Assembly (NCBI RefSeq): GCF_004365635.1
Contig: NZ_SOBH01000002.1
Coordinates: forward strand, 1-64,000
Length of the DNA: 64,000 bases
From: Litoreibacter halocynthiae
Lineage (GTDB): Bacteria > Pseudomonadota > Alphaproteobacteria > Rhodobacterales > Rhodobacteraceae
Direction: 5' to 3'
Under the pieces are notes generated by a model. That model saw only the letters and a program-made list of their open reading frames with translations. It searched no databases and had not been told where the DNA came from. Below, in pieces: positions 3,382 to 59,105 of the stretch (within the stretch, counting starts at the first letter, position 1; each line of letters starts with the position of its first letter). A program made the position numbers and the translations under genes.

Positions 3382-3468
3382 TGGTGCGGTCGGAGGGACT
3401 CGAACCCTCACTCTTGTTACAGAACAGCGACCTCAACGCTGCGCGTCTACCAATTCCGCCACGACCGC
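3382..3468 (-). tRNA. tRNA-Leu (anticodon GAG)
   Basis: On the minus strand the sequence begins GCGGTCGTGGCGGAATTGG and folds as a class II tRNA. It has a 7-bp acceptor stem (GCGGTCG/CGACCGC), an anticodon stem CAGCG/CGCTG around loop TTGAGGT (anticodon GAG), a variable arm, a T-arm with GGTTCGAGTCC, and an encoded CCA end. Its 3' end faces the AT-rich island at 1-3381. Confidence 0.95.
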
Positions 3469-56317: not shown

Positions 56318-57379
56318 GTGCACGCAGACGAGAAGGACGATTACTGGACGCTGCAATCCAGTCCGTTGCAAAAGCAACTTGAACCACTACTGAAGACAGA
56401 GGCTATCGACGGTGTTGAGCCGCTTGGAAATCAGTTTGCCATAGACTCGAAAGAATCCGTACCCGAACTGCTGAAGCAACCGCTATTTGGACAGCCAGCG
56501 TTGACATCCAGTGAACTTGGCAGAGCACGATCAGCTCCTACAGTGTTAGGTCCGTTGAACACTTACGCGCTGCTTGACGCGGCCCGGTTACCATTCATAT
56601 TAACTGAGCTGCTTGAAGCGTCGGGGCTGACCAGCCAATCCCTGTTTGACGGCAAAGCGCAGGAAGAGATGGGGGAACAAGCTCCATATCTCGTGCAGCT
56701 TGAGGAGGCGAACAGCTTTACCAGAAAGCTTTTCACTGACGGGAGTGGTATGAACGGTCTTTGGGGATTAGGTCTAGGAATCTTTTTGCGATCACGGAGC
56801 TCATTTGCATCCGTTAGAAAGCACATGCGCAAGATGACCCGCGTTCAGATCGAAAAAGACAACACATGGAACTACTTTCGATTCTGGGAACCGAAAATGG
56901 TCCCTTATTTCCTACGCGGTACGGATGTTGCGAACCAAGAGGCATTTTTGGGTTTTGATCTTGAACTCCATACTATTGATCACGCGGGGACATGGTTAAG
57001 AATGTATCTGGTTGGAGAACCAAGGCTCACGCCGCCCGCTCGCATTATCATCAAAGATCGCGATAAGACCTCATTCCAGCGCTACGGTCGCAGGCAATAT
57101 GTCCACGATCTAAAAGACTGGCTGTATGACAGCTTTGGCAACCCTTCCAAGATTGAAGATACTGAAAGGTTTTTAAGGCGCGAGATTAGGGCAGCGCATA
57201 AAGGCTTCCGCACAACTGATAAGCGCATCATTGCTCATTGTGTGGCCGCATCTTGGCTTCTGGGAGAGAGCGCCATGACTACTAAGCGCGTAAAAACTTC
57301 GGACGTTTTGGTTAACGCGCGCGGTGCTAAGCAGCTTTATGACAGAGCGTATAAGTACCGCTACATGGTCGAGGATTAG
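56318..57379 (+). CDS. DUF4123 protein (type VI effector adaptor, Tap/Tec-like)
   Basis: A 353-residue protein. The DUF4123 pattern spans about 80-205: TYALLDAARLPFIL, then SLFDGKAQEEMGEQAPYLVQL, then GLWGLGLGIFLRSRSSFASV, and HMRKMTRVQIEKDNTWNYFRFWEP with MVPYFLRG (each cited in part). Such proteins load toxic effectors onto the VgrG spike of type VI secretion systems. The C-terminal 130 residues are helical and less conserved, probably the part that grips the cargo. GTG start with GGTGA upstream. The next gene begins 2 bases later. Confidence 0.8.
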   Translation: MHADEKDDYWTLQSSPLQKQLEPLLKTEAIDGVEPLGNQFAIDSKESVPELLKQPLFGQPALTSSELGRARSAPTVLGPLNTYALLDAARLPFILTELLEASGLTSQSLFDGKAQEEMGEQAPYLVQLEEANSFTRKLFTDGSGMNGLWGLGLGIFLRSRSSFASVRKHMRKMTRVQIEKDNTWNYFRFWEPKMVPYFLRGTDVANQEAFLGFDLELHTIDHAGTWLRMYLVGEPRLTPPARIIIKDRDKTSFQRYGRRQYVHDLKDWLYDSFGNPSKIEDTERFLRREIRAAHKGFRTTDKRIIAHCVAASWLLGESAMTTKRVKTSDVLVNARGAKQLYDRAYKYRYMVED

Positions 57380-57381
57380 TA

Positions 57382-58557
57382 ATGACTTATCAGCCCAGCT
57401 TTGAAGACATGCTCTACCTAACGCGGGAGAACCCAAACCTGTTTTCGAACCCCGGAAACCTCGCGGAGGTCGCCCAAAACTACGGCGGCTCAGATGCGGT
57501 GTCGGTCATAACCCGAGAGTCTGCCTCTGCAGCCGCATACCAAGATTACCTAGAACGGGGAGGTGACGTCCTGACGGAAAGCCCAGTACCTATCCCACCC
57601 GAAGTTCAGCCGACCCCTCCATTTGAGCAGGGCTCTGAAGTTTCGGAAGCATCACAAGAATGCCCGTGCAAAAAAGAAAACATCATAGTTTTGGGATCAG
57701 AACAGTATTATAATTCATTCTGGCTCAAGATGATGTTCATGTCCCCAGCATTCAGTGTAGCCGCTGGTTACAAGCTGCCCCCACGTTGGAAGGCTGCAGA
57801 TAGGACCACGGTACTCTATGTCCGACACGGCTATGTACGGCCTGAATTCTTGGCGTTGGAAGCATTGCGCGACACCCATGGCATCAACCTGGTGCCGCTC
57901 AACAGCGTTGGTCAACTGACAGCATATGTAAACAACCGTATGCACGAAGGCGAAGAGTACAAGGTACAACATCTCGTGTTCTTAGCGCACGGGCTGTACG
58001 ATCGGTTGGCTTTGAATTTCTGGAAGACTCCGCTAATTGATGTCAGAAAAAGAAATATCGACGCGTTCAACGCATCTGCTTTCGATCGGGGCGGCGCCAT
58101 TTATTCCTATGCCTGCAGGACCGGCACATGGGTCGATCAGGAAGCATTCTCAAGCGCCGCTCAAGCCGAACCTCAAAACAGCATAGCCCAATACATGGCG
58201 GACCAATGCGGCGTAAAAGTCTATGCATTCATGACACGCACATTGTTCAAGCAGTGCATCCGCGACCCCGCCGACAGTGACTCTATTACCGTAAGTCTTG
58301 TCGAGAGGCGGGAAAGCCAGGAGGGCCAGATTATCAATATTTCCAGCGAACATGAAGGGTTGCCACATCCGGGGGTTGGCCATTCCGTTTTTGTATTGGA
58401 TGCCCCTATCGATCCACCCGGACCCTTTGGCGGGGGGCAGCGCGAAGGCACGGCAGAATATGCACTTTGGCGCAAAGGCGGCGCGCGATATTTACCTGTT
58501 GGGGGGCAAACACCCACTGGATTGCCTAACTCAATGCGCGTCTTTGAGCCGGCATGA
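57382..58557 (+). CDS. Putative type VI effector with His/Cys clan-CD-like core
   Basis: A 391-residue protein with no recognised family. The N-terminal 100 residues are Pro- and Glu-rich and may be a delivery segment. From about 100 to 340 it has alternating strands and helices. Two motifs stand out: HLVFLAHG with His203 and AIYSYACRTG with Cys245. This is the spacing and context of the His-Gly and Cys ends of caspase/CHAT/C80-type cysteine peptidases. VKVYAFMTRT follows as the next strand. GAGG precedes the ATG. Cargo identity is inferred from its place between a DUF4123 gene and a membrane-anchored gene. Confidence 0.55.
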   Translation: MTYQPSFEDMLYLTRENPNLFSNPGNLAEVAQNYGGSDAVSVITRESASAAAYQDYLERGGDVLTESPVPIPPEVQPTPPFEQGSEVSEASQECPCKKENIIVLGSEQYYNSFWLKMMFMSPAFSVAAGYKLPPRWKAADRTTVLYVRHGYVRPEFLALEALRDTHGINLVPLNSVGQLTAYVNNRMHEGEEYKVQHLVFLAHGLYDRLALNFWKTPLIDVRKRNIDAFNASAFDRGGAIYSYACRTGTWVDQEAFSSAAQAEPQNSIAQYMADQCGVKVYAFMTRTLFKQCIRDPADSDSITVSLVERRESQEGQIINISSEHEGLPHPGVGHSVFVLDAPIDPPGPFGGGQREGTAEYALWRKGGARYLPVGGQTPTGLPNSMRVFEPA

Positions 58558-59105
58558 GGAAAACTTTCATTGTAGCAATTGTTGCAATAGCTGGGTTGGT
58601 TATTGTCGCAAAAATAGGTTGGGGAGTTTGGAAGGGCTATATGGGACAACTAGAAAATAACGAAAACTGCACATTCTACAATGAGGTGGACTATCAATTG
58701 CAATTGAAGTGGGTAAATGGCATCGCCGTTCCAGAGCCTGCAAACCCGTTTCCCGTGCGCGTAACATTTGAACTGAACGGGTTGCCACATAATATTAGCC
58801 GCATGATCTTCAACCATGGCACAGCGCCGATCACTCCACCGACATATGAAAGCGCCGAATATGTTGGACCGTTTCAACTGACAATGGACTTCCTTTTGTC
58901 AGACACCAGAAATGAATGGCCTTTCTCGTTTCATCCTGCGGTAGGCTTGTTTTATGATGACGAGCGAGCCGTTTGCTTTTGGGATAGTGGAGAGGTCGCC
59001 GAGTACATCCAAGATAGCCGAGGGCATCCACATTTCAAACTCGAATTACTCCCCTACCGGCGGGTCGATGTGATGTCCGGATATAATTTGCAGCTAGTCA
59101 AGTAG
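58554..59105 (+). CDS. Membrane-anchored putative immunity protein
   Basis: A 183-residue protein with one N-terminal membrane segment (residues 5-22, FIVAIVAIAGLVIVAKIG) and a periplasmic domain of mainly beta character, including VRVTFELNGLP and LTMDFLLSD. Two Cys (NCTFYN and AVCFWDS) could pair. Its ATG overlaps the effector stop by 4 bases, the usual setting for an immunity gene. The periplasmic location suggests the effector is met in the periplasm. No family recognised. Confidence 0.55.
   Translation: MRKTFIVAIVAIAGLVIVAKIGWGVWKGYMGQLENNENCTFYNEVDYQLQLKWVNGIAVPEPANPFPVRVTFELNGLPHNISRMIFNHGTAPITPPTYESAEYVGPFQLTMDFLLSDTRNEWPFSFHPAVGLFYDDERAVCFWDSGEVAEYIQDSRGHPHFKLELLPYRRVDVMSGYNLQLVK

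Follow-up and report, generated by a model that had tools for sequence, protein, structure and literature searches.

Do bacteria keep the ammunition of a type VI secretion system (T6SS), together with the matching antidotes, in genomes where the gun itself is not found? The question is raised by a unit of three genes in Litoreibacter halocynthiae (RefSeq assembly GCF_004365635.1), located within positions 1 to 64,000 of contig NZ_SOBH01000002.1, forward strand; this whole stretch of 64,000 nucleotides is referred to as the window. An earlier inspection of the letters alone, here called the original prediction, had described the unit as an orphan T6SS effector module composed of a DUF4123 adaptor, a novel cargo and a membrane-anchored immunity protein. 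On balance, the unit is probably a three-gene T6SS cargo-effector cassette without a spike of its own, kept as chromosomal ammunition for a T6SS that varies among close relatives.

The three genes form a tight unit on one strand (all coordinates are given in the table): the second starts 2 bp behind the first (57379 end, 57382 start) and overlaps the third by 4 bp (ATGA at 58554), so the overlapping or nearly touching reading frames of the original prediction were recovered as described. The first product was assigned to DUF4123 by a hidden Markov model search (PF13503, 79 bits, gathering cut-off 25.8, residues 83–204), and the TYALLDAA, GLWGLGLGIFL and FRFWEP blocks from which this family had been proposed are all there. 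It is related to the Tla1 equivalog (NCBIfam NF053803), without being a member (36.5 bits, curated cut-off 200). Using Pfam, no vgrG, hcp or PAAR family was matched among the three genes, and no vgrG lies near the cassette, as had been claimed.

For genes 2 and 3, no Pfam or NCBIfam family was found above cut-off, the sole listing for gene 2 being an unrelated family at E = 0.25. H203-G204 and S242-Y243-A244-C245 are kept in all five aligned cargo proteins; the cargo has the conserved His (in HG) and the downstream Cys that mark caspase-like clan CD. The window protein was not listed against DUF4347 (PF14252, gathering cut-off 24.6 bits) at E up to 10. Two of the five aligned cargos match this family below cut-off (L006, 20.7 bits, E = 3.9e-4; L097, 11.7 bits), and the cargo profile was aligned by hhalign to a DUF4347 protein of Treponema at a probability of 68.9, an alignment in which both the HG and the Cys line up. 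Published caspase-like toxin domains are marked by H and C residues (PMC3482391). Judged from these motifs and matches, the cargo is quite probably a caspase-type cysteine protease. The claim of a novel cargo stands insofar as neither gene 2 nor gene 3 has a family over cut-off, but the cargo looks like a distant DUF4347/caspase-like relative and is not wholly novel.

The cargo was matched in 5 of 389 genomes, strongly in the window genome, G149 and G151 and more weakly in G262 (E = 1.9e-14) and G271 (E = 8.6e-4), and a further homologue was found in one Paracoccus metagenome-assembled genome (L006). Homologues are 40–51% identical (G149, 51%). One TGA was reported within the G151 match; the reading frame there, as read, runs through 297 codons without a stop. 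On a Treponema plasmid, a contractile-injection locus encodes a distant relative (26%, E = 2e-7), and no phage or viral contig was matched. On that plasmid (L120:2892-6804, Treponema succinifaciens), a DUF4347-annotated gene and the distant cargo relative lie a few kb apart.

The third gene is less conserved than the cargo: its three homologues are 15–23% identical to the window protein, against the 40–51% among cargos. Immunity proteins usually diverge fast. C39 and C141 are conserved in all four members found, of which three pass the hydropathy threshold of 1.6; the single N-terminal hydrophobic segment of the window protein supports the membrane anchor that had been claimed. Cargo and third gene occur together in all four loci compared (the window, L006, G149 and G151; the comparison did not extend to the neighbours of the weaker matches in G262, G271 and Treponema). 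Genes in loci fetched from other genomes were called by script, and those without a Pfam match were named by reading of their translations. The order adaptor, cargo, third gene is common to the window, L006 and G151, whereas in G149 (contig C9) the cargo homologue is followed by the third-gene homologue, a DUF4123 gene and, on the opposite strand, a vgrG whose product matches Phage_GPD (PF05954) at E = 6e-76. The G262 match lies downstream of a VgrG-like gene. The toxin and immunity roles, which had been put forward from gene order only, thus gain support from a pair common to four loci and once found one gene from vgrG, and they are treated as putative here. In L006 (1661-6593), two cassettes were seen tail to tail, one of the window type and one Tle1-like, the adaptor of the second being cut by the contig end.

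Table. Features of the three-gene cassette (positions in the window) and partner genes of the four sister cassettes of the same genome
Feature	Position	Strand	Basis
Adaptor of 353 aa with DUF4123 domain (Tap/Tec type), starting with GTG	56318..57379	+	Pfam PF13503, E 4.2e-22
Cargo of 391 aa; probable cysteine-protease toxin of caspase-like type (clan CD, DUF4347-related)	57382..58557	+	motifs, sub-cut-off matches
Candidate catalytic His203-Gly204 of cargo	57988..57993	+	invariant in 5/5 aligned sequences
Candidate catalytic Cys245 of cargo, SYAC block	58114..58116	+	invariant in 5/5 aligned sequences
Putative immunity protein of 183 aa; single membrane segment at the N-terminus, followed by a soluble domain	58554..59105	+	hydropathy, 4-member alignment
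N-terminal hydrophobic segment, residues 4-22 of gene 3	58563..58619	+	mean Kyte-Doolittle 2.51 over 19 residues
Sister cassette: Tle1-like phospholipase, separated from the adaptor by another protein			Pfam 1.8e-14
Sister cassette: matrixin-like zincin and a partner			9.7e-5, below cut-off
Sister cassette: CHAP-like protein behind a second adaptor-like open reading frame; two SH3_3-like proteins			CHAP 7.7e-5, below cut-off; SH3_3 below cut-off
Sister cassette: 136-residue protein and partner			neither with a Pfam match

The assembly (3.68 Mb, 9 contigs, completeness stated as 99.99% without method) holds five DUF4123 genes on three contigs (C1, C2, C3), none with internal stops, each forming with its partner genes a small group amid ordinary genes. 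The orphan position away from vgrG agrees with the original prediction, but the cassette is not a lone one. Among the putative immunity proteins of the five cassettes, three of six pass the hydropathy threshold (one each in the window, Tle1 and CHAP cassettes), and one of the three below it, from the zincin cassette, begins like a lipoprotein as judged by eye; membrane or envelope partners would fit toxins acting in the periplasm. The N-terminal parts of cargos with different enzymes (window 57382-57690, L008:10185, L009:9735, L134:6866) contain Gly/Pro-rich stretches and Cys clusters (CCDCP, CCPPPP, CCACP, CPCKK) ahead of the catalytic part, and this N-terminus is perhaps an adaptor-binding leader.

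Neither TssC (PF05943) nor the VgrG hub (PF05954) was matched anywhere in the assembly, in which Hcp, TssB, TssK and other T6SS families were not searched for. The one PAAR gene found is far from the cassette of the window, for which linkage to vgrG, hcp or PAAR was accordingly not seen (hcp not searched). As controls, the same TssC search was positive in 8 of 21 genus genomes and in 34 of 149 family genomes, and PF05954 recognised the G149 VgrG, this second family not being run on the congeners. A local T6SS was rejected for this assembly on the TssC and VgrG searches. The original prediction had named a genome devoid of T6SS genes as a finding that would speak against it, and in essence such a genome was found.

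Across relatives, DUF4123 nevertheless goes with the T6SS. In the family sample (n = 149), DUF4123 was over cut-off in 7 genomes and TssC in 34, with both in 6 (Fisher P = 5.7e-4), the window genome being the sole DUF4123-positive exception; an eighth genome, G006, has a sub-threshold DUF4123 match only and no TssC. In the genus sample (n = 21; here and below, the statistics take no account of relatedness), 11 genomes have DUF4123, 8 have TssC and 7 have both (P = 0.017), with 1–12 DUF4123 matches in each of the 11, some of them not adaptor-only. The four DUF4123-positive congeners without a TssC match are the window genome, G150, G151 and G154, and none of their 24 DUF4123 matches contains a stop. 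In ten stretches read from G150 and G154, DUF4123 genes are accompanied by one or two partner genes, and no vgrG was recognised. On a 7.3-kb contig of G150 (C6, L144), a DUF4123 gene and a weakly zincin-like protein with its partner were seen along with a tyrosine integrase.

The T6SS contigs were examined in three of the eight TssC-positive congeners (G149, G152 and G167; the other five were not read). G152:C3 (73,157 bp) is plasmid-like and carries ParA/ParB-like genes, T6SS genes including TssC, vgrG and DUF4123, the names beyond TssC and DUF4123 resting on reading; G149:C9 (120,921 bp), the contig with the homologous cargo pair, is likewise plasmid-like, with ParA/ParB-like genes by reading and TssC. 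Many Rhodobacterales plasmids carry TssC relatives among the matches listed (40 of 433). Rhodobacteraceae bacterium S2214 carries T6SS core genes on one plasmid, a vgrG-PAAR-DUF4123 locus on a second and a further DUF4123 gene on a third. Thioclava sp. GXIMD4215 has TssC on one plasmid and, on another of 8.4 kb (p7, L121), a DUF4123 gene and two small partners that adjoin a HigA/RelE-type addiction module; p7 is perhaps an 'ammunition plasmid'. Plasmid-borne T6SS in Rhodobacteraceae have been published before (PMC13098142, PMC9113992). The likely reason why no TssC or VgrG was matched in the window genome is that, within the genus, the T6SS varies in its presence and is often carried on plasmids.

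In the mechanism we propose, the cargo would be bound by the DUF4123 protein and passed on to a VgrG provided in trans. Once in the periplasm of a rival, it would work as a cysteine protease of caspase-like type (His203/Cys245). The producer and its kin would be protected by the third protein, which would have an inner-membrane anchor and a periplasmic domain. The cassettes would be chromosomal ammunition for a gun that is present at some times and absent at others, their immunity genes perhaps being useful meanwhile.

The finding of TssC on plasmid-like contigs of about 73 and 121 kb in two congeners also bears on another explanation, namely that a T6SS plasmid of this strain was missed by the assembly and that the cassette is an ordinary working effector module. 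Completeness estimates usually rest on chromosomal marker genes, and the value for this assembly comes without a method. Against such a plasmid, all four DUF4123-positive genomes without TssC are at least 99% complete, and G154 is in 3 contigs, which makes fragmentation an unlikely cause of the missing TssC there. We consider a missed plasmid unlikely.

A different launcher could be an extracellular contractile injection system (eCIS), of which the genome has a complete-looking operon at C1:1230786-1258763 (L034:5786 to L035:13763). It encodes a sheath (PF04984, E = 5e-10; PF17482), a tube (PF06841, E = 1e-36), Pvc16_N, AAA, CIS_tube, an OB-fold spike, gp25 and eCIS_core (E = 1e-22), as well as patatin-like, MBL-fold and other proteins and, at its end, an unmatched 737-residue protein. 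The sheath search (PF04984) covered the 21 genus genomes, not the family sample: all eight sheath-positive congeners have DUF4123, among them three of the four DUF4123-positive genomes without TssC; two further congeners gave weak sheath matches and have no DUF4123. The distant cargo relative in the Treponema contractile-injection locus, the likeness of the sole PAAR of the genome to PAARs of eCIS loci, and the purifying selection described below for two cassettes in two eCIS-positive, TssC-negative genomes point the same way. On the other side, no DUF4123 gene was found in the eCIS stretch that was read (C1:1205001-1265000), and the hub and spike of the operon are only weakly VgrG-like (18.9 and 43.2 bits against VgrG_rel, cut-off 275). 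G150 has seven DUF4123 matches with neither TssC nor a sheath, so that neither system, as sequenced, accounts for all four genomes, as a gun that comes and goes would.

The adaptors themselves were also compared. In a tree of 51 of 58 adaptors (50 labelled; seven rows from four other genera dropped), the T6SS label changed 15 times against a mean of 16.0 in shuffled labels, with 74 of 200 shuffles at 15 or fewer; adaptors of genomes with and without a T6SS are mixed, on a tree whose inner branches are often weak (26 of 48 open). Gene 1 contains the N-terminal motif 'VEPLGNQF...VPELLKQPLFG', and a motif of this type (PLDAQFG...LFG-like) was found by regular expression in 19 of 58 adaptors, in T6SS-bearing and T6SS-less groups alike. 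The mixed tree and the shared motif speak for an origin of the cassettes with the T6SS and against an adaptor specific to the eCIS. Because of this mixing and of G150, the eCIS was downgraded as launcher and is regarded as slightly less likely again than the missed plasmid. Less likely by a further step is the fuller proposal that the DUF4123 adaptors here serve the eCIS and that adaptor-toxin-immunity cassettes, maintained by purifying selection where an eCIS but no TssC is present, are launched by it, perhaps via a separately encoded needle-PAAR tip of eCIS type; if true, the eCIS would be directed against bacteria, and its cargo would be interchangeable, paired with immunity proteins and encoded at dispersed chromosomal sites.

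The candidate for such a tip is a stand-alone 146-residue needle gene with the PAAR gene (L011:1471-2214; C1, near 759,500), which lies well away from the eCIS operon and has no adjacent hub. No PAAR was recognised inside the operon, the spike of which terminates with a His-Thr-His apex sequence and is perhaps self-capping. The needle aligns with eCIS-type spike ends (E down to 1e-9 in a small set), against E = 0.022 and 4.9 with two T6SS VgrGs of the genus. The PAAR is 67–75% identical to 10 PAARs of TssC-less genomes and 48–65% identical to 12 of TssC-bearing genomes, as compared over 22 of 29 loci from other genomes; among the seven left out, L072, from a TssC-less genome, has a PAAR without a match to that of the window genome, contrary to the trend. 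By reading, 8 of the 10 TssC-less loci have hub-spike and gp25-like neighbours, which the most similar one, L054, has not. A remnant of a T6SS spike is therefore the less likely origin of the pair, although the needle matches DUF2345, a domain known from VgrG, at 27.2 bits, just under the cut-off of 30.7. The pair may be an alternative tip in trans or a remnant.

The lack of TssC and VgrG matches would also be expected if the cassettes were decaying relics of a lost T6SS, and here the ratio of nonsynonymous to synonymous substitution rates (dN/dS) is informative. It was determined for two sister cassettes shared at the same sites with G151, the window cassette being without a close orthologue: 0.101 for the adaptor, 0.046 for the Tle1-like protein and 0.054 for the immunity protein of the Tle1-type cassette, and 0.066 for the adaptor, 0.078 for the zincin and 0.086 for the partner of the zincin cassette, with 0.005, 0 and 0.044 for flanking genes. 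Values of 0.046–0.101 indicate that these two cassettes are kept and are not obvious relics; with all five DUF4123 matches also free of internal stops, decay is very unlikely. At two sites common to G150, G152 and G153, adaptor identity is above toxin identity (69% against 45% for G150, 59–66% against 42% for G152), and in G153 the DNA match ends at the adaptor end, which looks like toxin exchange behind a resident adaptor. At one chromosomal site in four congeneric genomes (L008:8266-11920, L137, L134, L133), a conserved adaptor was seen with varying toxin and immunity genes behind it.

Finally, it is highly improbable that gene 2 encodes a caspase-like protease working inside the cell, in defence or processing, and that gene 3 regulates it: caspase-like domains are often processing peptidases (PMC3482391), but the gene follows a DUF4123 adaptor in the window, L006 and G151, lies one gene from vgrG in G149, and PADLOC gave no match, anti-phage defence being rejected on the same search.

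Several observations weigh against the reading of the unit as a T6SS cargo cassette. The caspase-like assignment was made from motifs and matches below cut-off, and sequence and profile searches for PDB relatives of the cargo returned nothing of worth. The third-gene homologue of L006 (1.35) is under the hydropathy threshold. With neither TssC nor VgrG matched in the host, delivery is hypothetical here. The T6SS is not always plasmid-borne, TssC of G167 being located at 2.58 Mb of a chromosome-sized contig (C1). The association of the eCIS sheath, over cut-off in 8 of 21 genus genomes, with DUF4123 is no weaker than that of TssC (P = 8e-4, relatedness uncontrolled), and strong purifying selection between two TssC-less genomes is unexpected for a gun long gone.

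The cassette is in an AT-rich stretch, as originally described, and the stretch is a putative insertion: it has a GC content of 0.507 (window, 0.595), which puts it in the bottom 1% of stretches of its size, and lies between folE2 (PF02649, E = 8e-76) and an ars-like operon with genes for a helix-turn-helix protein, an SBF-family transporter, ArsC and an FMN reductase, which, ArsC apart, we take to be ArsR-like, ACR3-like and ArsH-like. AT-richness was rejected as a hallmark of all cassettes, the other four having GC contents of 0.542–0.590 against 0.570–0.595 in their flanks. No flanking repeats were seen at the window cassette, no tRNA is near it (the only one in the window is at 3382-3468), and promoter and terminator scans around it gave chance level only.

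Compared with known systems, the cassette resembles the vgrG-DUF4123-effector-immunity modules of T6SS (Tap/Tec; PMC10673891) in its adaptor directly upstream of a cargo and a putative immunity gene, and in the congener G149 the homologous pair is found one gene from vgrG. It differs in that no vgrG, hcp or PAAR was recognised in it and in that its genome is without a TssC or VgrG match. With orphan islands and auxiliary modules (PMC13098142, PMC9765294) it shares effector-immunity cargo located away from the T6SS, which also occurs on plasmids; those published are defined by hcp, vgrG or PAAR, and the cassette falls outside the definition of PMC13098142. Orphan effectors without these genes are mentioned in PMC9765294. 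Since the survey of PMC13098142 keys on hcp, vgrG or PAAR, it would miss adaptor-only cassettes.

With respect to the cargo, PA0256 of Pseudomonas aeruginosa is a putative T6SS toxin with a DUF4347-type domain, for which binding to Hcp3 and toxicity in E. coli have been reported (PMC8262886). It may serve as a precedent for a DUF4347 domain in a T6SS toxin; it differs in being Hcp cargo with cytoplasmic toxicity and no candidate immunity gene, whereas the cargo of the window stands behind an adaptor and has a membrane-anchored partner. Tox-Caspase (clan CD) polymorphic toxins have the same type of His/Cys caspase-like domain, their delivery being given as type VII secretion (T7SS), Photorhabdus virulence cassettes (PVC), TcdB/TcaC and type II secretion (T2SS), not as DUF4123/T6SS (PMC3482391). 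Cpe1 (PMC12136450) is a T6SS-associated cysteine-protease toxin with immunity that is papain-like, in contrast to the caspase-like motifs here. In the literature searched for DUF4347 and for T6SS effectors of caspase-like or cysteine-protease type, no caspase-like effector with a DUF4123 adaptor was found, the nearest being PA0256, for which no adaptor is named. The kind of cassette is known; the adaptor-only form in genomes without the gun, and the cargo, are a variant that was not found described in the portion of the literature searched. A probable caspase-like protease with a membrane-anchored partner would join the cargo types behind DUF4123 adaptors, and the T6SS weapon would appear split in two, into chromosomal adaptor-toxin-immunity cassettes and a machine that varies among close relatives and is often plasmid-borne, which makes it testable whether bacteria keep ammunition and antidotes without the gun.

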